The notes below the pieces were generated by a model. It ran no database searches and was not told the origin of the DNA. It saw nothing but the letters and a program-made list of their open reading frames with translations. DNA of 64,000 bases from Flavobacteria bacterium MS024-2A (GTDB lineage: Bacteria; Bacteroidota; Bacteroidia; Flavobacteriales; Flavobacteriaceae), in NCBI GenBank assembly GCA_905182305.1, contig CAJJBB010000001.1, positions 103,326-167,325 on the forward strand, in the 5' to 3' direction. Positions 6,437 to 61,615 of this stretch are shown piece by piece. How positions within the stretch are numbered: the stretch's first letter is position 1; every line of letters begins with the position of its first letter. The translations under genes were made by a program, and so were the position numbers.

Positions 6437-7183
6437 TCAGTCTTTCAGTTTTTGTAATCGTTTAATCTCTTTTATTTGGTCTGCAAAGAAACTATTTTTT
6501 TCTGGATATTTCAAACCTAATATTTGATAGGCCTGAAGTGCTTTAGTATATTTTTGTTGCTTAACAAAAACTTTAGCTAAAGTTTCAGTCATTAATTCAT
6601 CAGAAGATGTCCAACTTATTTCACTTAAATCAATATTATTTTTTGAGTTCTTATCGGGGACGATTTTTTGAGTATTAGCTATAAAGCTGTCAATGAGCTT
6701 AAACTTATCTTCTAACGTTGGTTTTTCTTTGTTTAATATTTTCTTTGTTTTTAAGTAATGAGCCCAATCTGCAAAAGTTAAGGATTCTGGCGTATTTTCT
6801 GTTTCTTGGAATTTTGAAGTTTTTTTAGATTTTTTTATGCCAGAAACTTTGGTTTCCTTTAATTTATTCTTTTTAGGTTCTTTAAGTTGTGCATTTATTT
6901 TTGAAATCGAAAGACTATCTGTAACCTTAATAGATGATTTCTCTTGATTTTCAATAAAGTCATATAAAAGGTTTCGGTTATATGTAGCGATTGCGGTATG
7001 CGAGAGCTGCTTGTCAAAAGCTTCAGGTTTTAGTTCTTGCACTGCTTTCAGGAAATAGGTTCTTACCAAATGAAAATCAGGATAAACTTCAAGAACGTTT
7101 TCAAGTGCTTCAAGTTCTTTTTTACTTGAAAAGTCAAAGGTGTCTAATACCTTAAAAAGGGAAAAAGCGTCTTTAATTACCAT
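6437..7183 (-). CDS. Tetratricopeptide-repeat-like protein
   Basis: C-terminal ETLAKVFVKQQKYTKALQAYQILGLKYPEKNSFFADQI TPR-like; conserved position between secG and lptE in Flavobacteriia. Confidence 0.65.
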   Translation of the reverse strand: MVIKDAFSLFKVLDTFDFSSKKELEALENVLEVYPDFHLVRTYFLKAVQELKPEAFDKQLSHTAIATYNRNLLYDFIENQEKSSIKVTDSLSISKINAQLKEPKKNKLKETKVSGIKKSKKTSKFQETENTPESLTFADWAHYLKTKKILNKEKPTLEDKFKLIDSFIANTQKIVPDKNSKNNIDLSEISWTSSDELMTETLAKVFVKQQKYTKALQAYQILGLKYPEKNSFFADQIKEIKRLQKLKD

Positions 7184-7716
7184 TTAGCTAAAGTATCATT
7201 AAATATATCTTGTGTGATTCTATCAAAAATTTCTTTATGTGCCGCATCTTTTACATCATATACTTGCAGTCCTGCTGGAAAATCATAAAAGAAAGAATAC
7301 GTTTTGTCGTAATCATCCTCTTCTTTTTTCAGGTTTATAAAATGAAAAGCTATCGACATTTTTAATCGGTTTTGAGCAGCTGTTATTTTTGCAGTAGCAG
7401 ACATTGGTGTTACACTATATTCTGTGATTTCTCCTTCATAGATTAATTGACCATCAGTAGTTACTAAATCTAAGTTAGTTTGGTTCATAATTAAATCTTG
7501 AAGAGCAACAGTAAACTCATTGTCTAAGCCTGGTTCAACGGTAGATCCAGGTCTATTCCCTGCTTTGTTCTCAAAGAAATTTACCTGAAAAGTTGTTACT
7601 CCTGCAGGAATGGAAGCGCCTGTAAAGGAATAAATCCCACAGGAATTTACTAACATTACAATAAACAGAAAGGATACAAGTTTTAGATTATTCTTTTTCA
7701 AGGTCATTGAGATCAT
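7177..7716 (-). CDS. lptE: LPS assembly lipoprotein LptE-like
   Basis: Lipoprotein signal NSCGIYSFTGASIPAGVTTFQVNFFENKA; location in the secG-lptE-sigma54-miaB block. Confidence 0.8.
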   Translation of the reverse strand: MISMTLKKNNLKLVSFLFIVMLVNSCGIYSFTGASIPAGVTTFQVNFFENKAGNRPGSTVEPGLDNEFTVALQDLIMNQTNLDLVTTDGQLIYEGEITEYSVTPMSATAKITAAQNRLKMSIAFHFINLKKEEDDYDKTYSFFYDFPAGLQVYDVKDAAHKEIFDRITQDIFNDTLAKW

Positions 7717-8966
7717 ATTGTTTTATTTTACGATAAAGTGTTCGCTCAGAGATACCTAATTCTTTTGAAGCCAATTTACGTTTTCCATTGCTTCTAATTA
7801 AAGCCTGTTTAATCATTTCTATTTCTTTCGCTTGAAGAGAAAGAGGCTCTTCTTCTTCAATTGTTTCGGCATATGAATATTTATCCATTGTTTCTACTTG
7901 AGAAATCTCTGAGGTTTCTGCCTGGAAAGGGAGAGCTTTATATGAAGGTGACATTTCTTCTTCTTTTCCTTCCGTTTCTTTCCCATAAATTTTATCTATT
8001 AATCCTTTATTTTTTTCCTGAGCAACCTCAGCGGTCTCGTGATTCATTAGGTCAAGAGTTAACTTTTTTAAGTCATTTAAATCATTCTTCATATCAAAAA
8101 GCACTTTATACAAGATTTCTCGTTCTGAAGAAAAATCACTTTCACTTTCTTTTTTACCCATTAAAGCAGGTGTCTTTGAACCATTATCTGGTAAATACAT
8201 ACGAATCATCGCGGCATTAATATTCCTTTCTTTTTCTAATACAGATAACTGTTCAGCAACATTCCTTAACTGTCTAATATTTCCATTCCAACGATATTCT
8301 TTTAAAAGAGCTTGTGCATGTTCATCAAGTTTCAAGGTTGGCATTTGGTATTTTTGAGCAAAATCAGAAGCAAATTTTCTAAATAAAAGTACAACATCTT
8401 CTTTTCGCTCACGGAGTGGGGGTAGGGTAATTTCAACTGTGCTAAGACGGTAATATAAATCTTCTCTAAACTTTCCTTTTTGTAGAGCTTCCATCATGTT
8501 GACATTGGTCGCAGCTACTATTCTTACATTTGTTTTTTGTGCGTTAGAGGAACCGACCTTAATAAATTCTCCAGTTTCGAGTACTCTGAGTAACCTCACT
8601 TGAGTGGGGAGTGGAAGTTCTCCTACTTCATCTAAAAAAATAGTACCTCCGTCAGCCACTTCAAAATATCCTAGGCGGGTTTGTGTTGCTCCCTGTGAAG
8701 GCTCCTTTTTCATGACCAAAAAGTTCACTATCTATAGTTCCCTCAGGAATAGCACCACAGTTTACCGCAATATACTTTGAGTGTTTTCTGTGAGAATATT
8801 GGTGTATTATTTTAGGAATATTTTCTTTTCCTACCCCACTTTCTCCAATAACTAATACAGATATATCAGTTCCAGAAACACGCATTGCTTTTTCTAAAGC
8901 TCTATTGAGTCCTAAGTTATTTCCAATAATTCCGAAACGTTGTTTAATACTTTGTAATGAATCCAT
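7688..8966 (-). CDS. Sigma-54 interacting transcriptional regulator, interrupted by a frameshift near 8689-8693
   Basis: ORF 8661-8966 (GESGVGKENIPKIIHQYSHRKHSKYIAVNCGAIPEGTIDSELFGHEKGAFTG) continues in another frame as ATQTRLGYFEVADGGTIFLDEV... to an HTH C-terminus. ACAGGGAGCAACA needs one G fewer to read through. Confidence 0.88.
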
Positions 8967-8968
8967 AA

Positions 8969-10376
8969 TTAAACGCTTTTAGAGTATCCAACAGCATTTC
9001 CAATAAGGGTTGCAGAGGTACATTTTTTAATTTTAACATCTACAAAATCTCCAATTTGATAGTGTTCTTTTGGAAAAACAACAACAGTATTTTTAGCTGT
9101 TTTACCACTCCATTGGATTTCTGATTTTTTAGAAACCTTTTCAATCAGTACACAAACGGTTTTACCAATATTTTGTGAAGTTCTAAAATTACTGTGCTCT
9201 CTTTGTTTTGAAATGATTTCGCTAAGTCTCCTCTGCTTAATTTTTTCGGGCACGTCATCCTTGATTTTTTTTGCTGCCATTGTACCGGGTCTTTCAGAAT
9301 ATGAATACATAAACCCATAGTCGTATTTTACATAGTCTAAAAGGTCTAATGTGTCTTGGTGGTCTTGTTCTGTTTCTGATGGGAATCCGGCAATCATATC
9401 GTGAGAAATACCACAATCAGGAAGTATAGAACGAATGGAATTTATGAGACTGAAATATTCTTCACGGGTGTGTTGACGATTCATTTTTTTTAAAATGGTG
9501 TTACTACCCGATTGAACAGGAAGGTGAACCGCATTACAGATATTATCGTATTTGGCTACAACTTTTAATACCTCAAGAGACATGTCCTGTGGATTTGATG
9601 TTGAAAACCTAATCCTCATTTTTGGTTGAGCTTTAGCTACAAGTGTTAATAAATTTTCAAAACGTAAAGCTGTTTTTTGTTGTAATGATGAAGCTTTTTC
9701 AAAATCTTTTTTTAGCCCTCCTCCATACCATAAATAACTATCTACATTTTGCCCAAGCAGAGTAATTTCTTTATAATTTTTAGCTTCTAATGCGCTTATC
9801 TCTTCCAAAATACTTTTCGGATCTCTACTGCGCTCTCTTCCCCGAGTGAATGGAACTACACAGAAAGTGCACATATTATCACAGCCACGAGTAATAGAAA
9901 CAAATGCAGAAACACCATTTGAATTTAGTCTTACAGGAGAAATGTCTCCGTAGGTTTCATCTTTTGATAATAGAACATTGACCGCTTCTTTTGTTGCTAG
10001 CGACTTCTTTAAGTAGGTTTGGAATATCTTTATAAGCATCAGGTCCAACGACTAAGTCAACTATTTTTTCTTCTTCAAGGAATTTATGTTTTAGGCGTTC
10101 TGCCATACAGCCTAAAACTCCTACTGTCATTTCTGATTTTTTTATTTTAAGGGAATTAAAGTATTCTAATCTTTTACGAACTGTTAGCTCTGCTTTTTCA
10201 CGAATAGCACAGGTATTCACCAAAACTAGTGAAGCTTCCTCTAGGACCTCTGTTATTTTATAGCCGTCATCATTCAGGATAGACGCCACAATCTCGCTAT
10301 CTGCAAAGTTCATTTGGCAACCATAACTTTCTATATATACCTTTTTATTATGTGTTTTTTTAGCTAGTAACCACAT
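8969..10376 (-). CDS. miaB: tRNA-2-methylthio-N6-dimethylallyladenosine synthase MiaB, interrupted by a frameshift near 9989-9992
   Basis: N-part [16 protein letters not shown]...[15 protein letters not shown]-part [54 protein letters not shown]. One extra A in an AAAA run restores the frame if removed. Confidence 0.92.
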
Positions 10377-10626
10377 TATTTACAAGTACTTGACCGTTAT
10401 ATTGGTTAGGATTTTTATCGGGGGAATCTGATAATCCCCTATTTTCCTTAATACTTACTGTTTTGGTTTTCAATACTTTATATATTTTACAGATTTCTAT
10501 GAGAGAAATTATTTTACAAAGATAAGGAATTACAGACAAAGTGTCATGTATGAAACACAAACTCCTCATCAAAAAAACACACTGATCATAAAATCATTAC
10601 ATTAGAAAATAAATTTGGATCATTCT

Positions 10627-11114
10627 ATGAAAAATTTGATTTTCATAAGTTGTTTTATTTTGTTTTTGGGATGTAATTTAAATATTTCTCAAAACGAAAA
10701 GTTATCTGATATAGAATCCCTTCAGCTTAAAACTTCTTTTGTAGATTTAAAAAACAAAAAAGTTGATTTGAGATCCTATAAAGGAAAGAAAATCATCATT
10801 AATCATTGGGCCACATGGTGTGGGCCATGTATAAAGGAAATGCCAGGAATAAAAAGGGCTCAACAGATTTTAAAAAACTATAATTATATTTTTCTGTTAG
10901 TTTCTGATGAAAAAGTTTCAAAAATATCTGCGTTTAAAAATGATAAGAAATATGATTTAATTTTTTAAAATCTGTTGGATCAAATGAAACACTTGGAATA
11001 TATTCTTTACCAACATCATATATTTTTAATGAAAAAGGAATAAAAATTGAAACTATTGTTGGGACGATTATTTGGGATTCTGAAATAATTATAAATAAAT
11101 TAAAAACATTATGA
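10627..11114 (+). CDS. TlpA/thioredoxin-like lipoprotein, frameshifted near 10956-10958
   Basis: INHWATWCGPCIKEMPGIKRAQ; the ORF stops at 10968, but adding one T gives KKYDFNFLKSVGSNETLGIYSLPTSYIFNEKGIKIETIVGTIIWDSEIIINKLKTL*. Confidence 0.75.
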
Positions 11115-47043: not shown

Positions 47044-47107
47044 ACTTACAAAAGATGATATGCCTGTTGTTTAAAAGAAAACGCCACTAAAGTTAATTAG
47101 TCACGTT
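47044..47107 (+). repeat. Module-2 repeat, copy 1
   Basis: ACTTACAAAAGATGATATGCCTGTTGTTTAAAAGAAAACGCCACTAAAGTTAATTAGTCACGTT. Confidence 0.85.
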
Positions 47108-51354: not shown

Positions 51355-51732
51355 GGGATGAGTTTTTTTATTACCACAATTTACTGAATTATCAAGACTA
51401 CATCTACTAGTTGAATAAAATAGGCAGTAATTATATGAAGAAGATAATAATCTAAATCCTTAATCTATTCAAGATGCGTTTTTATGGATATTATCTGATC
51501 AAATTTAATAGTAATGTGATTTAACTAATGGTTGGCTATTAGGAAGTAAATAAAGTCTAATGGATTATAACATCATATATTCTACAATAATTTATTAAAT
51601 TCAATATAATTAGTACTTTGCAAGGTATTTATACACCAATATGTACACTGCTATGTCAATTATTATACAATTAAAGTAAAGTAAGTATTTGTTATTGACT
51701 GTTAATATGTACAATAGAACACCGTGTTTCTT

Positions 51733-51790
51733 CCAGAACTTACTGATGATGATATGCCTGTGGAAAAAAAGAAAAACACCACATTAAAAA
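51733..51790 (+). repeat. Module-2 repeat, copy 2 (diverged right half)
   Basis: CCAGAACTTACTGATGATGATATGCCTGTGGAAAAAAAGAAAAACACCACATTAAAAA. Confidence 0.75.
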
Positions 51791-51823
51791 TTTCGTATGG
51801 TTTCTAAACTAGAATAAAAATTT

Positions 51824-51964
51824 TTATGTAAATCCCCCACTATTATCATTAGGATTTACCTTATTAAGGTCAACCCCTGTTCGCTCATAATATTCTTTTC
51901 GGAATTTTAAATTCCTATCTCTTCTTTTCTTAAAACATTTAAGTAAATTTTTTATCCATTTCAT
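51824..51964 (-). CDS. Small hypothetical protein, 46 aa (absent from ORF track)
   Basis: MKWIKNLLKCFKKRRDRNLKFRKEYYERTGVDLNKVNPNDNSGGFT*; A-rich upstream leader. Confidence 0.5.
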   Translation of the reverse strand: MKWIKNLLKCFKKRRDRNLKFRKEYYERTGVDLNKVNPNDNSGGFT

Positions 51965-52051
51965 AATTTATGATTTAAAATAAAACACCAACTATAACAG
52001 CAATTAAAAATACTATATAGGACAAAACAAGCTGTTTTTGTTTTCAAAATA

Positions 52052-52240
52052 TCACAATGACAATAGGTAATTTATAATAGCAAATGGATAGAAACAAACT
52101 GTTAAAAAAATTGCAATAATAACGACTCCCTTTGCTAAATCTTTATCAGTAATATTATTTATCCATAATATTGTGGGTTTAATACCTTTTATGAGTATAA
52201 AAAACCCAAAAAATGCTAAAAAATAAGCTAATAACTCCAT
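52052..52240 (-). CDS. Small two-TM membrane protein
   Basis: MELLAYFLAFFGFFILIKGIKPTILWINNITDKDLAKGVVIIAIFLTVCFYPFAIINYLLSL. Confidence 0.6.
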   Translation of the reverse strand: MELLAYFLAFFGFFILIKGIKPTILWINNITDKDLAKGVVIIAIFLTVCFYPFAIINYLLSL

Positions 52241-52255
52241 TACAGCTAATATAAC

Positions 52256-52330
52256 AAATCCCAGAACTTACTGAAGATGATATGCCGATGATTCAAAAGA
52301 AAACGCCACTAAAGCTAATTAGTGACGTTT
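52256..52330 (+). repeat. Module-2 repeat, copy 3
   Basis: AAATCCCAGAACTTACTGAAGATGATATGCCGATGATTCAAAAGAAAACGCCACTAAAGCTAATTAGTGACGTTTTT. Confidence 0.9.
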
Positions 52331-52353
52331 TTATGCATAGAAAGGTCTTTTAT

Positions 52354-52836
52354 TTAATTGTCTTCAGATCTTGATCCTATTTGAGATGTTCCACTTCCAC
52401 TTGATATTGGAGAATAATGAGCTGTTTTTATAACCCATTTACCATTTTCTTTTATATAAGTTTCTGATACTCTTGTCATATAATGAGAGACAGCAGGACT
52501 CCCTTTTGGTTTCATACTACCTTCGCTATAAAACATAGCTATTGCAGCTTTTCCTTGAACAAGAGATACTACTTTGATATGTTTAGGTTGTAAGCTAACG
52601 TAATCCCATTCATTTTTTCTGTTGTTGGGATTTTGGTCATAAATCATTAGCCCCCCTGTAGAATTAAATGCATAGTGACCATTGTCTGACATAAGTCTAA
52701 CATCAATGTTGCCCTTATTGTTTATTTCCCAATTACTTTGAATTAATTTTGTAATCTCTGTCTCATCTTTAGAATTATTTTGGGCAATAAGATTGGAAGT
52801 AATAAATAGAAGTAATAAGATTCCAATTTTTTTCAT
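52354..52836 (-). CDS. Secreted NTF2-like/DUF4440 protein
   Basis: Signal peptide; IQSNWEINNKGNIDVRLMSDNGHYAF...YMTRVSETYIKENGKWVIKTAHYSPI. Confidence 0.7.
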   Translation of the reverse strand: MKKIGILLLLFITSNLIAQNNSKDETEITKLIQSNWEINNKGNIDVRLMSDNGHYAFNSTGGLMIYDQNPNNRKNEWDYVSLQPKHIKVVSLVQGKAAIAMFYSEGSMKPKGSPAVSHYMTRVSETYIKENGKWVIKTAHYSPISSGSGTSQIGSRSEDN

Positions 52837-52874
52837 TTTATATTTATTTATGGTTAATAATACTCAAATATAAC
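52837..52874 (-). promoter_or_regulatory. Shared promoter/leader block (TATATTTGAGTATTATTAACCATAAATAAATATAAAATG)
   Basis: Bacteroidota -7-like TAnnTTTG with the leader repeated upstream of other array genes. Confidence 0.6.
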
Positions 52875-52914
52875 AAATCCCAGAACTTACTGAAGACGAT
52901 ATGTCTGTGGTTTA
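52875..52914 (+). repeat. Module-2 repeat, copy 4 (truncated after GTGGTTTAA)
   Basis: AAATCCCAGAACTTACTGAAGACGATATGTCTGTGGTTTAA. Confidence 0.88.
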
Positions 52915-52921
52915 ATTTTTC

Positions 52922-53740
52922 TTAATTTTTTTTTGATCTTAATAGAGCAAGAAATTTTTTTCCATATTTCGATTTTTTTACTTTTGGAGAAAGCTTTAAT
53001 GCAACAGAGTCTAGTAATGAAATATTTGCATCACTTATTTTTGTATATGCTAAATAAGGTGCTATTTCGTAATTAGAATTTGAAATTGCAAAATTAGCAG
53101 TATATAAATAGCTTAGTAAAAGAGTCCTTTTCAGTTGATTTTGAAAAGAATCCATTTTTATTATATTATCATTTTCTTCAGCATATTTCTTTTTAATTTT
53201 TAATTGCTGAATTTTTAATTTAAATTGATTTTCAAGTTTTTGGTATTCAATCATTAATTCTCTATTCTTTTTGCCTTTTATGGTATAACTTCTTTTTTTA
53301 TTTAAAGAATTATTTTCCAAGCCAAGTTGAGTATTAATTACAATTGCAGATATAGTTAGTTGATCAGTTCTGATTTCAACTTTTTCAATCTTTTGAGTGA
53401 GCTCTCTGATGGAAATGAAATTTTTAAAGAGATGCTTTTCAGTCAATTCATTATCATTAATAAAAACTCTTAATGGACCTTCACTTTGAAATGAATGTAA
53501 TTTTCCTGTTTTATAATCTTCCAAAGGAATTATAAAATTAAATTCTCTCCAAAAAGCAGATCTAAACAACTTTTTGATGAATGCATCTCTTTCTCTGAAT
53601 GAATAGATATTATCATTCAAATAAATTTTTGGGATAGCGACAGCGGAATTAACCACCTCGTCTAGATCAATACTTGTCCCTTGTTGTCCAAAAGCAAAGG
53701 AAAGAAAAAATAAAAAGCTAGAAAAAATAAAATTTTTCAA
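52922..53740 (-). CDS. Secreted hypothetical protein
   Basis: Signal peptide ...FLFFLSFAFGQQ; probable TTG start at 53740 aligned with other MKK starts. Confidence 0.55.
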   Translation of the reverse strand: MKNFIFSSFLFFLSFAFGQQGTSIDLDEVVNSAVAIPKIYLNDNIYSFRERDAFIKKLFRSAFWREFNFIIPLEDYKTGKLHSFQSEGPLRVFINDNELTEKHLFKNFISIRELTQKIEKVEIRTDQLTISAIVINTQLGLENNSLNKKRSYTIKGKKNRELMIEYQKLENQFKLKIQQLKIKKKYAEENDNIIKMDSFQNQLKRTLLLSYLYTANFAISNSNYEIAPYLAYTKISDANISLLDSVALKLSPKVKKSKYGKKFLALLRSKKN

Positions 53741-53772
53741 AATCAATATGTTTATGGTTATTCAAACATCAT

Positions 53773-53843
53773 AAATCCCAGAACTTACTGAAGATGATAT
53801 GCCTGTGGTTTAAAAGAAAACGACATTAAAGTTAATTAGTGAA
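53773..53843 (+). repeat. Module-2 repeat, copy 5
   Basis: AAATCCCAGAACTTACTGAAGATGATATGCCTGTGGTTTAAAAGAAAACGACATTAAAGTTAATTAGTGA. Confidence 0.9.
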
Positions 53844-53898
53844 AATATATGATTTATTACTGTGAGAGGAATAAATAAGAATATGATTGTATTTTTGA

Positions 53899-54300
53899 TT
53901 AATTATTAAAAGGTATTACTTTAAGTTCATTTGAACCGAAAAACATATCTCCAATTAGTGAAACTGTTTCTTTTGTTATTTCTTCCTCTGAAGTATTTTT
54001 TTTTAATTCGAATTCAGTTAAATCCATCGAATACAGTTTATTCTCTTTTTGATTAATATGAATTGCCGTATAGAAGTGGTATCGTAGTATTTTTTCAAGG
54101 GTTATTTTAGTTCCAGGATAATAAGTTTGAAACCCCTCTAAACTTTTTAATGTAGTTTTTAATACTCGAAAAGACTTTTGAAATCCTAGTTCATTTTTAA
54201 GGCGAAGAGCCTTGTAATGATTAATTGAATCCTGAGAGTGCACTTCAGCTAAAAATATTGTAAAGATAAATGTTATAAAAGTGCGTAAGTTAAATTTCAT
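53899..54300 (-). CDS. Secreted hypothetical protein
   Basis: Signal peptide MKFNLRTFITFIFTIFLAEVHSQ; 133 aa. Confidence 0.55.
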   Translation of the reverse strand: MKFNLRTFITFIFTIFLAEVHSQDSINHYKALRLKNELGFQKSFRVLKTTLKSLEGFQTYYPGTKITLEKILRYHFYTAIHINQKENKLYSMDLTEFELKKNTSEEEITKETVSLIGDMFFGSNELKVIPFNN

Positions 54301-54380
54301 CTGTCAAATATATAGAGTATTAGTAATATACTAAGCTATTACACCTGTTAGGATAGATACTTTCAAAAATTATTTTAGTT

Positions 54381-54914
54381 TTAAAGCATTTTTTTTAATC
54401 TAAGTTTTTTTATCTCCTTTTTTTTTAACAAAATGATATTATCATCTTTCAAAGAATAAAATTCATTTTTAATTTTAAATTCTGGATTTGTATTTTCTGA
54501 AAACCCATCTGATTTTTTTGAGGGATAAAATTTAGCAATTGGTTTTAATAAATATATAAAATCATTCCTTTTATCTAATATTCTAAACCAACTATTACTA
54601 TAGGTAATCCAAGATTCCTTGTTATCTAAAAGTAGAATTTCGTTTTTAGGAAAAGCGAAAAGATTAGGTCCAACCTGTGAGCGCATAAAATCATCTAATG
54701 CGTTATACTTGACCTTAATTTCTTTTCCGTTAACCATTGTTGGTATGAATTCATCGTGATAAAATTTTGAACCAATAATATTTAACGTCCAGCTATTATC
54801 ACGTTTTTTAGTTTCTATATTTATTTGTTCTACATCTCCATAGTTTCTAACCTGTTGCGTTTGTTGGCTATGAATTAAAAATGGAAAAAGCAGAAAAGTA
54901 ATTACACTTCTCAT
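54381..54914 (-). CDS. Secreted hypothetical protein
   Basis: Signal peptide MRSVITFLLFPFLIHSQ; 177 aa. Confidence 0.55.
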   Translation of the reverse strand: MRSVITFLLFPFLIHSQQTQQVRNYGDVEQINIETKKRDNSWTLNIIGSKFYHDEFIPTMVNGKEIKVKYNALDDFMRSQVGPNLFAFPKNEILLLDNKESWITYSNSWFRILDKRNDFIYLLKPIAKFYPSKKSDGFSENTNPEFKIKNEFYSLKDDNIILLKKKEIKKLRLKKML

Positions 54915-54946
54915 TTTAATTGATTTATGGTTAATAAAGATTCAAT
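54915..54946 (-). promoter_or_regulatory. Shared promoter/leader block
   Basis: TTAACCATAAATCAATTAAAATG immediately upstream of the ORF, as at 57884 and 59461. Confidence 0.55.
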
Positions 54947-54966
54947 AAACCTATAATATCATAATA

Positions 54967-55044
54967 CCGTATTTTTCTTCTTGAACTTACTGATGATGAT
55001 ATGCCTGTGGTTTAATAGAAAATGCCAATAAGTTGATTAGCGGT
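54967..55044 (+). repeat. Module-2 repeat, copy 6 (subfamily with ACCGTATTTTTCTTC left flank, shared with copy 2)
   Basis: ACCGTATTTTTCTTCTTGAACTTACTGATGATGATATGCCTGTGGTTTAATAGAAAATGCCAATAAGTTGATTAGCGG. Confidence 0.82.
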
Positions 55045-55166
55045 TATTTTTTTTTCTTTAATTCATCAACCTCTTTTTTTATAGTTTCAATTACTTTTTT
55101 TTGTTGAAGCACCATACTTAAGGCAGCTAAAGCAAAAATAAATCCTATTACACCTAAAGTTTCCAT
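55044..55166 (-). CDS. 40-aa membrane microprotein (absent from ORF track)
   Basis: METLGVIGFIFALAALSMVLQQKKVIETIKKEVDELKKKK*; one TM plus a charged coiled tail; ends at repeat copy 6. Confidence 0.5.
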   Translation of the reverse strand: METLGVIGFIFALAALSMVLQQKKVIETIKKEVDELKKKK

Positions 55167-55288
55167 TTTTTTTGATTTAAGATTTGATTATCAAGGTAGT
55201 AATAAAACATAAAACGCCCCTAAAATTAATTATTAGTTCTTTGGATGATTTTGCGAAATTCGTAATTTAGATTATTTACTTTTAGGGT

Positions 55289-55459
55289 ATGGAAAAGTTA
55301 CTAATTATTCTTTATTTAAACCTTGGGTTTTATGCCATAGCAAGGACTAATTATTTCATTAGCAAAAGAGATAAAAATTGGGGTAAATGGATTCATAGAG
55401 TTTTACATCTTATTAATATTGTTGTTTACTTCAATATTTTATATGAATTAATTATATGA
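55289..55459 (+). CDS. 56-aa small membrane protein (absent from ORF track)
   Basis: MEKLLIILYLNLGFYAIARTNYFISKRDKNWGKWIHRVLHLINIVVYFNILYELII*. Confidence 0.45.
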   Translation: MEKLLIILYLNLGFYAIARTNYFISKRDKNWGKWIHRVLHLINIVVYFNILYELII

Positions 55460-55508
55460 GAATACAACCCTGTGATGTTTGCAGCTATTCTTCCCATATA
55501 TTTACATT

Positions 55509-55676
55509 ATGTTAGTTAAGGTTAAATATTTAGGATTATCTGTCAGCATTTTTGCTTGTCTATTTAAACTTATGTCTTGGCAAGGCGCTGATATACTATT
55601 GATTATCGGTTTATCTTTGTTGGGCATTTATTTTTTACTTAAAGTTTTTAAATCACTCTTTTTAAGGAAGGAATAA
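55509..55676 (+). CDS. Small GldL-TM-like membrane protein
   Basis: YLGLSVSIFACLFKLMSWQGADILLIIGLSLLGIYFLLKVFKSL resembles the GldL-related two-TM pattern; ATG at 55509. Confidence 0.5.
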   Translation: MLVKVKYLGLSVSIFACLFKLMSWQGADILLIIGLSLLGIYFLLKVFKSLFLRKE

Positions 55677-55678
55677 AA

Positions 55679-55705
55679 ACCTGAAGATGATATGCCTGTG
55701 GTTTA
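55679..55705 (+). repeat. Module-2 repeat, copy 7 (core fragment, truncated after GTGGTTTA)
   Basis: ACCTGAAGATGATATGCCTGTGGTTTA. Confidence 0.8.
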
Positions 55706-55820
55706 CAATAGAAGATTTGGAATTTATTTTTATTTAAGTATTTAAATGTATCTAAGATTTCATAATTAAGGGTATTTATTTTAAAGCAGTTAATTTTGTG
55801 TAAATTAAAATTAAATAAAT

Positions 55821-56324
55821 ATGCCAAATAAATATAGAATTATTGTTGAATTAACAAGTGTAGTTGCAATAATATTTTCACTTGTATTTCTTGCATTAGA
55901 AGTAAAACAAAGTAATCAGCTTGCTAAAGCAGAAATTAGACAAGCTTTAAATGTTACTGATATGGAAGTTTATAAGGTTCAAATGGAAGAAGATATAATC
56001 GCAAAAGCATTATATAAAATAAATAAAAATATACCCATTGATGATTATGAAGAATATCAGCTTAATGAATTCCAAAGGTTTAATTTTAGAGATTTTGACA
56101 ATTCTTTTTATCAATACAGAATTGGATTATTTGATGAAAATGTATGGTTTGCATACAGAAGAATAATTAAATCCTTATTAACGGAAAATTATATTATGCT
56201 AATGTGGGGAAACAGTAATCAATCATTTAGTATTGAATTTCAAGACGAGGTAAATAATATATTAAAAGAAATAAAAGATGATGTTGCTCTTGGTTTAAAA
56301 GAAAACGTCACTAAAGTTAATTAG
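55821..56324 (+). CDS. Hypothetical membrane protein whose C-terminus is encoded by a module-2 repeat
   Basis: N-terminal TM ELTSVVAIIFSLVFLALEVKQSNQ; C-terminus KDDVALGLKENVTKVN* read from repeat copy 8. Confidence 0.6.
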   Translation: MPNKYRIIVELTSVVAIIFSLVFLALEVKQSNQLAKAEIRQALNVTDMEVYKVQMEEDIIAKALYKINKNIPIDDYEEYQLNEFQRFNFRDFDNSFYQYRIGLFDENVWFAYRRIIKSLLTENYIMLMWGNSNQSFSIEFQDEVNNILKEIKDDVALGLKENVTKVN

Positions 56325-56330
56325 TGACGC
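56274..56330 (+). repeat. Module-2 repeat, copy 8 (right half, inside the ORF 3' end)
   Basis: AAAGATGATGTTGCTCTTGGTTTAAAAGAAAACGTCACTAAAGTTAATTAGTGACGC. Confidence 0.85.
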
Positions 56331-56454
56331 ATTCAACTTTAACTAAAATCTAAACAATGAAATAAACTATATGCTATATTACTACTCTTTAAAAAAGAAC
56401 TCTCATAATGCTTTTATAATGTTTCTTTAAAAATTTGTTAAAAAAACTAATCTA

Positions 56455-56667
56455 TCACATAAACAAAGGTAAATCTTCACTTACTTCATTAGTAGCTTGT
56501 TTCATTCTTGGTAAAGTGTATTGTAAGACTATTTGAAGCATCTTAATACGCTGGTTAGCGTCTAACTCATTTACACCTAAAGAAGTTTTTAAATCGTCTA
56601 TAAGTAGTTGTAACTTTTCTTTTACTTCTAATGTTATTTTATTTGGTACTCCTGCTGTTCTTACCAT
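56455..56667 (-). CDS. 70-aa hypothetical protein, apparently intact source of module 1
   Basis: MVRTAGVPNKITLEVKEKLQLLIDDLKTSLGVNELDANQRIKMLQIVLQYTLPRMKQATNEVSEDLPLFM*; N-terminal GxPNK motif reminiscent of DUF5681/small-terminase-like proteins. Confidence 0.6.
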   Translation of the reverse strand: MVRTAGVPNKITLEVKEKLQLLIDDLKTSLGVNELDANQRIKMLQIVLQYTLPRMKQATNEVSEDLPLFM

Positions 56668-56697
56668 TTTTCCTATATTTAATTTAAATTATTCTTA

Positions 56698-57027
56698 ATG
56701 AAACATCTATTACTATTCTTTGGTCTTATCCTATTTTCTTGTGGGGATAGCACATCAAAATTTGACTTACAGAAAAAGGAAATGATAGCAAACGAGTCCG
56801 CAAGATGGTTTACTATGGCTGAACCTAAAGACTTCGTCTTTAATGTAGTTAACGATTCCACTTTTACGATGTCTTCTAAATTTGTTCATCCTATCCTCGC
56901 TAAAGAAGTAAGGTTTACCTACACATATTCCTATACTTCTTCCCTTGACAGTTTAAAAAAAAACGAACTCTCAAAACAAGAACTACTTGTTGAAGGCACG
57001 TTAAACAAGTATGTAGACAGAGAATAA
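56698..57027 (+). CDS. Lipoprotein, hypothetical
   Basis: MKHLLLFFGLILFSCGDS lipobox; 109 aa. Confidence 0.55.
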   Translation: MKHLLLFFGLILFSCGDSTSKFDLQKKEMIANESARWFTMAEPKDFVFNVVNDSTFTMSSKFVHPILAKEVRFTYTYSYTSSLDSLKKNELSKQELLVEGTLNKYVDRE

Positions 57028-57105
57028 AAATACTTACTTTATTTTTTAGAGAACGTCATTATTCTAACAGTAACTTATAGTTAGTTCTGATTAGCTTACG
57101 AGAAT

Positions 57106-57180
57106 TAATCCCAGAACTTACTGAAGATGATGTGCCTGGGGTTTAAAAGAAAACGCCACTAAAGTTAATTAGTGACGTTA
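57106..57180 (+). repeat. Module-2 repeat, copy 9
   Basis: TAATCCCAGAACTTACTGAAGATGATGTGCCTGGGGTTTAAAAGAAAACGCCACTAAAGTTAATTAGTGACGTTA. Confidence 0.92.
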
Positions 57181-57211
57181 GTATTTATAAGATTCTTTGT
57201 GTTTTAGAATT

Positions 57212-57883
57212 CTAATTAAAAACGTGAATATTATTTGTCAAGTAGCTTTTAACTAATTCTACTTTTCCTCTTTCAGCAATAAAATTCTGAAAAGCCTTTG
57301 TTTTATTAATTGCTCTTTCAGTTAAAATTATATCGTTAAGGTTAGAACCGCTCAACCAAGTATTGTGAGTTCCTCCTTGTCCTCCCATATCAATTGATTC
57401 AAGTGCTACAATTCGATCATCCAAAATATTATCAATTGCTTTAATGAATTTATCATACGCTTTTGCAAACTTAGCAGGTTCGTGAACAATCATTTCCCAG
57501 TTTTTATGAGCTTTATTCTTTTTACCATCACCATCTCTCCATCGTAAATTTGTCATTACCATAGATCCAGTTCCATCATTGATGTTTTTTTGAATTTTCC
57601 CAATGTAGGCATCCCATTCAACATCTGATTTTTCTTCTTTATAACCCCAATTTGCAGGATCACCTACCAGGAGAACCCTGTGTGTCACATCATATCCTAA
57701 ATAATTTACTCCCTGAAGAACTGCAGCTCCTGATTTTCTTTCTGCATCATTCCACTCAGCAAAAAGTTCTGCAACCTCTTCTGCTCTTCCCATTTTAACA
57801 TCAAGATTAATAACTCTAATACTTGTTTGAGCAAAAGAGACTATTGAGACAAGTAAAGTTGTAATTGTAATAAATTTTTTCAT
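57212..57883 (-). CDS. Secreted hypothetical protein
   Basis: Signal peptide MKKFITITTLLVSIVSFAQ; start moved from 57913 because MSIINHKSIK is translated from the shared leader. Confidence 0.65.
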   Translation of the reverse strand: MKKFITITTLLVSIVSFAQTSIRVINLDVKMGRAEEVAELFAEWNDAERKSGAAVLQGVNYLGYDVTHRVLLVGDPANWGYKEEKSDVEWDAYIGKIQKNINDGTGSMVMTNLRWRDGDGKKNKAHKNWEMIVHEPAKFAKAYDKFIKAIDNILDDRIVALESIDMGGQGGTHNTWLSGSNLNDIILTERAINKTKAFQNFIAERGKVELVKSYLTNNIHVFN

Positions 57884-57920
57884 TTTAATTGATTTATGAT
57901 TAATAATACTCAAACATAAA
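57884..57920 (-). promoter_or_regulatory. Shared promoter/leader block (TATGTTTGAGTATTATTAATCATAAATCAATTAAAATG)
   Basis: TAnnTTTG plus conserved leader. Confidence 0.65.
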
Positions 57921-57938
57921 AAAAAATTAAAAAATCAC

Positions 57939-57979
57939 AAATCCCAGAACTTACTGAAGTGGATATGTATGTGGTTTAG
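57939..57979 (+). repeat. Module-2 repeat, copy 10 (truncated after GTGGTTTAG)
   Basis: AAATCCCAGAACTTACTGAAGTGGATATGTATGTGGTTTAG. Confidence 0.85.
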
Positions 57980-57981
57980 TT

Positions 57982-58332
57982 TTATTCTTTTTTAAACCAA
58001 AGCATTATTCTGTTATTATTTGAAAAAGTCAAATTTGAAAAACCAAAATTATTTCCCCGGTTGTTATTACTTAATGGAATGTTTCCGTTAATGTCAAGTT
58101 CTATTCCAGATGTTACTTTTTCCAGGGTAAAACCATTATTTTGATATTCATTTATGAGATTGACAATAGAAGGGTTTTTAATTTTTTTTCTATTTATTTT
58201 TTCTCCCCCATTATCAATCATTACAAATAATTCTTTAGAGTTTTGATTTACAATATCAACAATAACCCATTCTTGGGAATGTACTTTTGAAATAAAGACA
58301 AAAAAGGAAAAGACAAATAAAATTATTTTCAT
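57982..58332 (-). CDS. Secreted hypothetical protein
   Basis: Signal peptide MKIILFVFSFFVFISKVHSQ; stop lies about 3 bp from repeat copy 10. Confidence 0.55.
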   Translation of the reverse strand: MKIILFVFSFFVFISKVHSQEWVIVDIVNQNSKELFVMIDNGGEKINRKKIKNPSIVNLINEYQNNGFTLEKVTSGIELDINGNIPLSNNNRGNNFGFSNLTFSNNNRIMLWFKKE

Positions 58333-58392
58333 AGTATAATCTGTTATATCCCAAATATAAGAAACTCTACAATATCTCTAATCCTTGTTTTG

Positions 58393-58518
58393 TCCCAGAA
58401 CTTAATGAACAAACAAAGGCAAGTCCTCACTTACTTCATTAGTAGCTTGTTTCATTCTTGGTATAGTGTATTGTAGAACTTACTGAAGATGATATGCCTG
58501 TGGTTTAAAAGAAAACTT
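58393..58518 (+). repeat. Composite repeat, copy 11: module-2 left end / inverted module 1 / module 2
   Basis: TCCCAGAACTTAATGAA-CAAACAAAGGCAAGTCCTCACTTACTTCATTAGTAGCTTGTTTCATTCTTGGTATAGTGTATTGTA-GAACTTACTGAAGATGATATGCCTGTGGTTTAAAAGAAAAC. Confidence 0.9.
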
Positions 58519-58577
58519 CAATAAACAGAAAACGCTAACTTTGATAAAACCTTAAATCAATTTATTACGTTTAAATT

Positions 58578-58769
58578 ATGAATTATAAAATTTTAATGAC
58601 CGTTACTGGTGTTCTAATTATAGCAAACCTCCTGATTGGATTCTTCACTAATTTTTGGGATGAAACTAATTATCCTGATTATATCAACTCCGTTTTAGGT
58701 GTTTTTTTAATTCTGTTTGCCACACAAGTTTTTTCCAAAGAGAATAAAAAAGAAAGCAAAGAAGATTGA
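58578..58769 (+). CDS. Small membrane protein (63 aa)
   Basis: MNYKILMTVTGVLIIANLLIGFFTNFWDETNYPDYINSVLGVFLILFATQVFSKENKKESKED; followed directly by a module-2 terminator remnant. Confidence 0.55.
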   Translation: MNYKILMTVTGVLIIANLLIGFFTNFWDETNYPDYINSVLGVFLILFATQVFSKENKKESKED

Positions 58770-58774
58770 AGAAA

Positions 58775-58895
58775 TAGAAAACGACCCTAAAGTTAATTAG
58801 TAACACTAATCACACAAACAATGGCAAATCTTCACTTACTTCTATTCTAGGTAAAGTGTATTGAAGAACTTAATGAAGATATGCCTGTGGTTTAG
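58775..58895 (+). repeat. Composite repeat, copy 12: module-2 terminator / inverted module 1 (15-nt in-frame deletion) / module-2 core
   Basis: AGAAAACGACCCTAAAGTTAATTAGTAAC..., ACAAACAATGGCAAATCTTCACTTACTTCTATTCTAGGTAAAGTGTATTG, AGAACTTAATGAAGATATGCCTGTGGTTTAG. Confidence 0.88.
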
Positions 58896-59031
58896 GTTTT
58901 ATATTTAAAAAATTACCGAGTTCTCAATTCACACTTACAAAACTTCTTTAAAGTTTCATTCACAAAATTTTAGAGTAGTTTTTCATTGTATTGGTTAAAG
59001 ATGTTTAAATCGTAAACTCGGGAGAGTTATC

Positions 59032-59460
59032 TTATTTTATTTGCTCCGGTCTTTTAAACCAGATACTTGCTATAAACATAAAAGCAATTGTAGCCCAAAT
59101 AATAATTGATGGAAAATCTGGGGCTAAAGAAGCGGGACCCATTTCTACAGTATAACCAAATTGGTTAATAATTGCTTTTGCACCTGATGAAATTTCTGCT
59201 CCGGTTTGCTCTAATTCAGAAAGTTGATATGAAATACTTTTTTGAGTTTGGACCATATAAGAAGATACTTGTAATCCAAAAAATATTATGCAAGTGCAAA
59301 ATAATGTCAATACGATTTTAGAATAAACAGGCATATTAAGCTCTCTTGACCTTCTAATAAGATAAAAAGCTAATACTGTCATTACAATTACACATAAAAG
59401 GTAAATTGCATTATTTATAAGATTAAGATTAGATATTTGATAAATTTGAAATTCATTCAT
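59032..59460 (-). CDS. Hypothetical membrane protein
   Basis: Three hydrophobic segments; start moved from 59490 because MNIINHKSIK is translated from the shared leader. Confidence 0.6.
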   Translation of the reverse strand: MNEFQIYQISNLNLINNAIYLLCVIVMTVLAFYLIRRSRELNMPVYSKIVLTLFCTCIIFFGLQVSSYMVQTQKSISYQLSELEQTGAEISSGAKAIINQFGYTVEMGPASLAPDFPSIIIWATIAFMFIASIWFKRPEQIK

Positions 59461-59497
59461 TTTAATTGATTTATGGTTAATAATATTCAAACATAAA
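59461..59497 (-). promoter_or_regulatory. Shared promoter/leader block (TATGTTTGAATATTATTAACCATAAATCAATTAAAATG)
   Basis: Nearly identical to 57884-57920. Confidence 0.65.
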
Positions 59498-59516
59498 CCT
59501 ATTATTAAAGAATCAC

Positions 59517-59653
59517 AAATCCCAGAACCTACTGAATAAACAAAGGCAAGTCATCACTTACTTCATTAGTACCTTGTTTCATTCTTGGTAAAGTGTATTG
59601 TAAGCCAGAACTTACTGAAGATGATATGCCTGTGGTTTAAAAGAAAACACCCC
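59517..59653 (+). repeat. Composite repeat, copy 13: module-2 left end / inverted module 1 / module 2; right end of array
   Basis: AAATCCCAGAACCTACTGAA-TAAACAAAGGCAAGTCATCACTTACTTCATTAGTACCTTGTTTCATTCTTGGTAAAGTGTATTGTAAG-CCAGAACTTACTGAAGATGATATGCCTGTGGTTTAAAAGAAAACACC. Confidence 0.92.
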
Positions 59654-59932
59654 TGACCATGAGAGTTTGGATTACACCCCTCTATACCCGTTTACCCCTA
59701 AGGAAAACCCCCTAATTAATCAAAAACTAATGAACTGATCGTCATTGTATTAGATAGGATAATTGGGGTGCAATGTATGTAGTGTCTTAAATACAGATGT
59801 ATAGGATTATATACTAGATACAAGAACTAGTGTCTAAATAAAAAACGATTCTAAAAAACCCACCCCTTATTTAGAAATCAAAGAATGTTTAGGAACTTTT
59901 AGGTTTTAAATATAATATCATAGTCCACATCT

Positions 59933-61615
59933 TTACTTATATACAATTGGTCTAGTTTCTTTTTTCTGAAATTCTGAATTCATTAAGATCCATAAATTAG
60001 GATCTAAAGTTATACCTATGGGCTCTTTATCAGATTTTATTCTATAGATATTTGACTTTCCATTCAATTGAACTTTTTCCATTTTAATATTATCGTTTTC
60101 AAATGTGATTTCAATCTCAAGCGGTAATTCAATTATTTGATTTCCATTCTGCACTTGATTTAATTCAATTATGATTTCGCTATTAATTTTGTCATATTGC
60201 CAAAAGCCATTTAATTTGAGATTCCCCGGACTGTATAACCATTGTTTGAAAAAATAGGTGAGACTTAGACCCGAAACCTCTTCCATTACAATTTTAAAGT
60301 CTTCTGTTGATGCATTTAAATCTTTAAATTTCAAATAATAAGCTCTAATTCCTTTCCAAAATATTTCTGTCCCCAAAACCCCTCTTAACATATGTAAAAC
60401 CCAACTTCCTTTTTGATACGTTTGTGAACTCGTAACTTCATTCATATCTTTCAGATTGTTGTGAATGATAGTGTATTCAGGGTTTTTTTTATAAAATAAA
60501 TCTACTCTTTTTTGACTTGATTTAAGCCCTTCAACAAAAGCCTCTCGACCATATTGATGTTCAATAAACAAAAGAGTAAAATAAGTTGCAAAACCCTCGC
60601 TCAGCCAAACATCATCCCAGTCATATTCAGTTACTGCATTACCAAACCATTGATGGGCTATTTCATGTATCACAACGTTTCTCCATCGTATATTGCGATC
60701 TCCTTTCACCGAGTTTGCACTGTATAGAATTGCTGAGGCCGCTTCCATACCACCACTAACACTGTTAGACTGAATATTGGCTAATTTTTCATAAGAATAA
60801 GGACCGATGTAGCTACTATAAAATTCTAGCACTTTTTTTGTAGGCTCTTTAAAATCATAAAAACCAGCATCTCGATCTTGTTTAAACACCCATGTCTGAA
60901 GGGACTTTCCTCTGAATTCATCGTGATATTGAACAGCAAAATCTGCAACACCCAATACATATAGCCATGATGCAATGGGAATCGATTGTTTCCAATGCGT
61001 AAGTTTTAAATTTCCATGTAAATTAGTTTCTTCTATTTTTAGACCATTTGAGACTACTTGATAGTGATCAGGTGCAGTAACAATAAATTCACACATTGCC
61101 TTGTCATAGGGATGATCAATTGTTGCCAACCAGTGACGTGCTTTATTAGGCCAATTATCACTAAAAAATGTTCTATCACCATATTTATTATTTCCAATTT
61201 GAAGGCCATTGGATGGGACTCCTTTGTACTGGATACTAAACTTTATTCTTTCATCTTTTTCTGAAGGTTTATCAAAATAGACCCACAGTTCATTTTCTTG
61301 ATGCGTAAATTTTAATTCTACATTATTTGATTTTACACGTTCTACAAGCATCCCTTTATTTTCAGATTCCTCAGAATAATTAGTTAAATCCAGTCTTATT
61401 TTTTCAAGGTTTGAAGCCTTAAAACGAAAATCAATAGTTGTATTACAAAATATTTCATCTTTTTCATCCGAAAGCGTTAGTTCAAAAACATAATTAATAA
61501 CATCAATCTTTGGGTTTTTTGGATATGGATCTCTTAGGGCTAGGGCTTGATGATGAAATGAAAAAATTATTACTAAAATAAAAATATTGAAAATCTTTTT
61601 TTTGAATGTGTTCAT
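59933..61615 (-). CDS. M1 family metallopeptidase
   Basis: VIHEIAHQWFGNAVTEYDWDDVWLSEGFATYF (HEXXH-18-E) and SGGMEAASAI. Confidence 0.92.
   Translation of the reverse strand: MNTFKKKIFNIFILVIIFSFHHQALALRDPYPKNPKIDVINYVFELTLSDEKDEIFCNTTIDFRFKASNLEKIRLDLTNYSEESENKGMLVERVKSNNVELKFTHQENELWVYFDKPSEKDERIKFSIQYKGVPSNGLQIGNNKYGDRTFFSDNWPNKARHWLATIDHPYDKAMCEFIVTAPDHYQVVSNGLKIEETNLHGNLKLTHWKQSIPIASWLYVLGVADFAVQYHDEFRGKSLQTWVFKQDRDAGFYDFKEPTKKVLEFYSSYIGPYSYEKLANIQSNSVSGGMEAASAILYSANSVKGDRNIRWRNVVIHEIAHQWFGNAVTEYDWDDVWLSEGFATYFTLLFIEHQYGREAFVEGLKSSQKRVDLFYKKNPEYTIIHNNLKDMNEVTSSQTYQKGSWVLHMLRGVLGTEIFWKGIRAYYLKFKDLNASTEDFKIVMEEVSGLSLTYFFKQWLYSPGNLKLNGFWQYDKINSEIIIELNQVQNGNQIIELPLEIEITFENDNIKMEKVQLNGKSNIYRIKSDKEPIGITLDPNLWILMNSEFQKKETRPIVYK

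Follow-up and report, generated by a model that had tools for sequence, protein, structure and literature searches.

Integrons are the textbook case of gene-cassette capture by a tyrosine recombinase. Genomic islands and elements of the staphylococcal cassette chromosome (SCC) type target the 3' end of a gene, which the incoming element regenerates, and tandem insertions occur; archaeal integrases of the Sulfolobus spindle-shaped virus (SSV) type have their attachment site inside int, a gene that integration splits. Tycheposons and other tRNA-associated islands of streamlined marine bacteria carry a tyrosine recombinase and have a tRNA 3' end as boundary. In integrons, the tyrosine recombinase is accompanied by tandem small cassettes, mostly with one gene and mostly of unknown function, whose sites share one orientation and which are exchanged between species (PMC8618304). 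Here we analyse a repeat, termed B, in a stretch of 64 000 nucleotides (the window; bases 103326-167325 of contig 1) from a metagenome-assembled genome (MAG) of 1.86 Mb and 86.5% completeness that belongs to an NS5-type marine member of the Flavobacteriaceae. B corresponds to about 40 last bases of a tyrosine-recombinase gene, with the coding tail PELTEDDMPVV followed by the stop codon. It is derived from the 3' end of that gene and probably serves as the attachment site of the encoded recombinase in an integron-like cassette system, of which the window would contain an array without the integrase.

The origin of B was established from open frames running through the repeat in all fetched loci. 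Near-full-length and full-length tyrosine recombinases end in B, the C-termini of the full-length enzymes reading PEL(T/N)E(E/D)DMP(V/M)(V/I) before the stop; such integrases come from the same genus and from other families of the Flavobacteriales. An earlier note on this DNA, made from the letters alone, had proposed that the repeat was a duplicated coding tail and that full-length proteins with this C-terminus should exist; both points are borne out, PELTEDDMPVV plus stop being the C-terminus of a tyrosine recombinase. A recombinase of 347 amino acids from the same genus (L163), with the C-terminus GHSSINVSLTYLRGLEIPELNEEDMPMI before the stop, matched PF00589 (Phage_integrase) with 36.8 bits (cut-off 27.1) and scored far below the XerC, XerD and IntI cut-offs; no NCBIfam model reached its cut-off for the integrase. 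When this integrase was aligned with ten relatives and with XerC and XerD of the window's genome, R207, K235, R298, H321 and Y330 were invariant, and the first catalytic His was a Tyr in this integrase family. B begins about seven codons past that of the catalytic Tyr and extends over the C-terminal tail and the stop. Substitutions in the larger copy set were not random with respect to codon position, again as the earlier note had anticipated, although these statistics are indications rather than a formal test because related copies are not independent: rates at codon positions 1, 2 and 3 were 0.100, 0.062 and 0.134, and among 179 distinct copies the synonymous fraction was 0.295 (0.222 expected) and amino-acid replacements had a mean BLOSUM62 score of +0.48 (-0.79 for all possible changes). 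Replacements were conservative in this frame only (T/N, D/E, V/M/L, V/I), every other frame giving negative BLOSUM62 scores.

A 33-nt core of B (CCAGAACTTACTGAAGATGATATGCCTGTGGTT) had eight matches with up to three mismatches on the plus strand of the window, with none expected from 100 shuffles, and further divergent or partial copies are present. The array spans positions 51729-59654, wider than the interval considered earlier, with an outlying copy at 47044-47107. That most copies read exactly the consensus was a slight overstatement, the 33-mer being matched without mismatch at 53778 and 59605 only; the individual variants quoted at the time were all located, namely GAA to GAT at 51743 and 54990, GAC for GAT at 52890, the copy with a 3-nt deletion (ELNEDMPVV plus stop) at about 58863-58894, and TAA/TAG stop swaps among the window copies. 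In the whole genome, 42 matches to B were found at E<=0.01 on seven contigs, forming several arrays.

The arrays have a regular structure, and in many related marine bacteria copies of B lie between exchangeable cassettes of one or two genes. Among pairs of neighbouring B copies 150-2500 bp apart in non-redundant loci, 108 lay on the same strand and 9 on opposite strands, and the median B-to-B spacing was 863 bp. The longest open frame between same-strand copies had the orientation opposite to B 92 times and the same orientation 9 times. Read antisense to B, a unit consists of a promoter and 5' leader, a gene, in some cases a hairpin with a T-run, and then B. The cargo proteins are mostly short and lack Pfam matches; several are DUF4440/SnoaL-like. 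The palindrome next to B (AACGCCACTAAAGTTAATTAGTGACGTT) folds well (z -3.3 / -4.5); the core of B does not (z -0.17 / +1.03). The palindrome had been suggested to be a bidirectional terminator. It is real and folds, but it varies and is found on only part of the copies, many of which stop at the stop codon, and its T-run (TTTTCTTTT) is on the minus strand, which makes it mainly a terminator of the minus-strand cassette genes, in agreement with the order of the unit in the antisense direction. Since B is the tail of a mobile-element integrase and is positioned at cassette boundaries, it is best understood as an attachment site, not an inert duplicate.

Loci that contain the integrase gene show how enzyme and array are arranged. 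The last 48 nt of a locus's own integrase gene recur elsewhere in 13 of 21 integrase loci, which represent several families; all 32 of these additional copies share the strand of the integrase, and 27 of them lie downstream of it, while such a repeat was found for 4 of 197 control windows taken from integrase bodies. At L193, the integrase gene (6472-7506) is followed by B at 8907, 9532, 10273, 10808, 11386, 11690 and 12636, and every cassette gene between these sites runs antisense to B; at L195, at least four B sites accompany the integrase in addition to its own. Where the enzyme has an array, the 3' end of its gene forms the first repeat of this downstream array. Integrase and cassettes have sites of one sequence, and no platform site of another kind was identified; direct repeats of the integrase-gene 3' end are present at element boundaries. 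Where integrases end in QLDVEDLPEL, the local repeat carries that same tail, and divergent integrases (down to ~40% identity) likewise have repeats matching their own tails, so that repeat and enzyme co-diverge. Several contigs break off no more than about 120 bp from the 3' end of the integrase (L192, L197, L229, L232, L242, L245), as expected if assembly breaks at a repeated or variable junction.

Cassettes have been relocated between species. Other species contain copies of units from the window's genome at 87-97% identity, which match from B to B and have unrelated flanks. The unit at 57103-57958 has a 97% copy in the sister genome G007 (contig C64) with different neighbours, that at 55211-55705 a 96% copy in another MAG (L156) in which identity ends at B on both sides, that at 55681-56327 a 95% copy in L167, and that at 51733-52304 an 89% copy in G007:C43, where it adjoins a locus orthologous to contig C5 of the window's genome. 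The neighbouring units 53808-54384 and 54374-54945 have copies of 87 and 91% identity in the array G007:C26, where they are split by another unit; the units of this array are scattered over C1, C6 and C7 in the window's genome, with hardly any order kept. Different cassettes are present beside a conserved 4.6-kb flank (94% identity) in L026 and L098. At an M50-peptidase locus, B arrays with different cassettes were found in five species, beside tRNA-Asn in three of the five, with an intact integrase in one species and a degraded integrase fragment in one.

These observations suggest a mechanism in which small cassettes would be inserted head to tail at B. Each would carry a promoter of its own and a single copy of B, together with, usually, one short gene read antisense to B and, in many cases, a terminator. 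The integrase would catalyse insertion and excision at B through a circular intermediate, the cassettes would come from other cells, and genomes lacking the integrase would be supplied with it in trans. Because B encodes the last 11-12 residues of the enzyme and its stop, insertion of a cassette at the B of the integrase gene itself would restore an equivalent C-terminal tail and put the cassette directly behind that gene. Where exchange might occur is suggested by half-copies. About twenty copies keep the left part of B, ending in GAACTTACT(N)AA, followed by the antisense 3' tail of a small gene (gene A, described below) and then a full B; others keep only the right part, from CTGAAGATG on. 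Together they would place the breakpoints in CTTACTGAAG, which is suggestive only since a 9-nt deletion that keeps the frame of the integrase tail accounts for some of the right-only copies.

The likeness to integrons lies in a recombinase beside tandem small cassettes (L193, L195), in sites sharing one orientation (108:9, with genes at 92:9), in cargo of mostly unknown function, in cassettes shared between species and in arrays without an integrase; the array in the window is comparable to a CALIN, a cluster of attC sites without an integrase. The system differs in several respects. Against TIGR02249, the NCBIfam model of IntI, the integrase reached 21.8 bits, with a cut-off of 265. An attC site folds as a single-stranded hairpin whereas the B core does not, the fold here belonging to a separate terminator. 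The site lies inside the 3' coding end of the integrase gene itself and all sites resemble that end, and the cassette genes run towards the integrase, apparently with their own promoters. Membership of the IntI/attC family was thus rejected on both testable features, the IntI model and a foldable attC, and the proposed system would work like an integron without belonging to the integron family by these two features. Compared with genomic islands and SCC-type elements, the target here is the recombinase gene and the units are integrase-less cassettes of ~0.9 kb. In SSV-type integrases the site also overlaps the integrase frame; here it comprises the last ~12 codons, past the catalytic Tyr, and the frame is kept. 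As with tycheposons, the hosts are streamlined marine bacteria and some arrays lie beside tRNA genes, but the repeated boundary is the integrase tail, not the tRNA 3' end.

Matches to B were found in 24 of 36 other genomes of the genus and in none of 23 sampled genomes belonging to the order's other families; one MAG classified in another family (CATIQX010000212, G333) does carry it. Named relatives with B are uncultured Flavobacteriaceae MAGs, one MS024-2A bin and 'Candidatus Arcticimaribacter forsetii'; MS024-2A and the latter have been placed in the NS5 marine group (PMC9122927). Neither the repeat pattern nor the integrase had a match in IMG/VR, in a search that reaches close relatives only, and a viral origin was dropped as these patterns lack a relative there.

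Several observations weigh against B being the attachment site of an integron-like system. The integrase was not detected in the window's own MAG, at the completeness given above, and it was found in only 9 of 38 genomes of the genus, so that most arrays lack an enzyme in cis. Eight of the 21 integrase loci lack repeats, some of them with more than 9 kb of downstream sequence (L227, L241, L243), which makes the arrangement common rather than universal. The closed genome of 'Ca. Arcticimaribacter forsetii' gave just two B matches with a DNA query, and the frame of the L194 integrase (9611-10651) is split by a frameshift at about 10020, both halves being well conserved. Some cassettes end away from B (window 54374-54384), and no recombination event, circular cassette or clean pair of empty and filled sites was seen. 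Inverted binding arms within B (CAGAACTTAC-TGAAGAT-GATATGCCTG, with a 7-bp spacer) were dropped as a candidate, since 1985 of 2000 shuffles reached the same score.

The strongest alternative, though we regard it as unlikely, is tandem accretion and decay, in which complete integrase-bearing elements each took the 3' end of the preceding integrase as insertion site and later lost their integrase bodies; the tails would be scars, and there would be no dedicated non-autonomous system. In other genomes, some B copies have longer integrase remnants in front of them (20-70 C-terminal residues; 34 matches), the integrase of L194 lies inside an array with B sites on both sides, and a degraded integrase is found at the edge of an array in G006, all of which fits accretion. 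At the loci of the window's genome, however, no integrase remnant was found upstream of B, and the cassettes are uniformly small, with the median of 863 bp, and have been relocated without an integrase, their copies being up to 97% identical. Cassette insertion and tandem accretion may both be at work. Somewhat less probable still is passive shuffling by RecA-type homologous recombination, with dispersed integrase tails of 40-75 bp as mere homology islands for transformation or rearrangement. This would fit a genome with many arrays in which the integrase was not detected, but B is a poor substrate for homologous recombination, being short and often only 85-90% identical between copies, and shuffling predicts neither the same-strand order (108:9) nor the orientation of the genes (92:9) and does not explain why the repeat co-diverges with the integrase tail of its locus. 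It is very improbable that B is a self-spread extragenic repeat, similar to repetitive extragenic palindromic (REP) elements or a bidirectional terminator, with a coding appearance by chance: the copies are intergenic and the palindrome is a credible terminator, but many copies lack it, the frame is the C-terminus of a known enzyme with conservative replacements in that frame only, and the homology to the integrase already contradicts this, in line with the earlier preference for a coding tail over a REP-type element. An equally doubtful candidate is an element dependent on XerC/XerD with a dif-like site, as the genome encodes both enzymes and XerC (C5:174.8 kb) is about 2 kb from an array, but B comes from another recombinase, whose tail it is and with which it co-diverges, and the neighbourhood of XerC, with its tRNA group, is seen again in G021 (L199) and seems to be an ordinary locus that is conserved, so that no link between XerC and the array is claimed.

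The B copies of the window described here are on the plus strand. The isolated copy at 47044-47107, about 4.6 kb left of the array, consists of the right part of B and the palindrome. The first B of the array (51729-51775) reads PELTDDDMPVE and has lost its stop; it opens the B-to-B cassette 51733-52304, which is followed by B with palindrome (52257-52332), a cassette gene for 160 amino acids with a signal-peptide-like start and only weak DUF4440/SnoaL-like matches (52354-52836, minus), a short B ending at the stop codon (52876-52915), a gene for 274 amino acids (52922-53746, minus) and an exact consensus B with palindrome (53774-53842). The cassette 53808-54384 (minus) contains a gene at 53899-54300 (minus) and the cassette body 54374-54945 (minus) one at 54381-54914 (minus), and B follows at 54980-55040. 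Two plus-strand cassettes, 55211-55705 with a gene at 55479-55676 (plus) and 55681-56327 with a gene at 55821-56324 (plus), are associated with a B lacking its left part and beginning with CTGAAGATG (55681-55708) and with a right end of B plus palindrome (56292-56329). An intact gene A for 70 amino acids, starting MVRTAGVPNKIT (56455-56667, minus), whose 3' tail is found elsewhere inside B copies, precedes B with palindrome at 57106-57179. The B-to-B cassette 57103-57958 (minus) contains a gene at 57212-57913 (minus) and is followed by a short B (57940-57978) and a gene for 116 amino acids (57982-58332, minus). The remaining copies are a composite of B left part, antisense A-tail and full B (58389-58525), an antisense A-tail followed by the B with the 3-nt deletion (58817-58894) and, after a gene for 152 amino acids with a repeated 5' leader (59032-59490, minus), a second composite of the first type, the last of the array (59518-59654). 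This 23-nt leader, TTAACCATAAATCAATTAAAATG, was found upstream of three different cassette genes (54912-54934, 57881-57903 and 59458-59480, minus strand; 0.01 expected) and is confined to the array within the window.

Gene A belongs to a family of about 70-110 amino acids (MGR..G.PNKIT.EV..KL...) with very variable C-termini, of which genomes throughout the genus have several copies each, both intact and broken (L011, L063-L090); it has no Pfam match, and one relative gave a weak PHROG match of unknown function. Its antisense tail, about 28 codons, is inserted in B at one fixed point, between GAACTTACT(N)AA and ACAAACAAAGGCAAG, in many genomes, at the three window sites given above and about 20 further loci, with the stop codon supplied by B. 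The idea that B was the eroded antisense body of gene A was abandoned after the integrase tail was found. A second repeated block of about 300 bp (containing CCCCTGACTAGGAGAGTTTGGATTACACCCCTCTATGCC) lies 3' of several B copies in this and other genomes (window about 59606-59943; own C7:5353-5731, C5:50875-51115, C7:111494-111826 and C4:86481-86644; L142, L156). Within about 100 bp of the integrase start, tRNA or tRNA-like sequences were noted at L192 (1210-1287, tRNA-His), L193 (6322-6390), L197 (1110-1196) and L194 (9304-9558), differing in strand and identity between loci. On contig C5 of the window's genome, a tRNA-Gly(tcc)/tRNA-Thr(ggt) pair is doubled (L025, 5861-6018 and 15410-15567) and flanks about 9.5 kb with B repeats, a stretch that resembles an island delimited by duplicated tRNA genes.

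No description of this system was found in the literature searched (subscription journals and preprints being outside its scope), and integrases or mobile elements are not mentioned in the NS5 genome paper (PMC9122927). Tentatively, it could be a second cassette-capture system, independent of IntI integrons and widespread in streamlined marine flavobacteria, whose site is the C-terminal coding end of the recombinase; each capture would then rewrite the tail and stop of the enzyme, which could couple capture to enzyme control. If so, capture would have evolved in parallel with a different enzyme and with the site in the enzyme's own gene, implying that such platforms arose more than once. Cassettes of this kind would escape integron finders, and the integrase tail would offer a simple sequence handle for finding them. 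The system would also explain the pool of small accessory genes, many of them secreted or SnoaL/DUF4440-like, that move between abundant uncultured marine flavobacteria.

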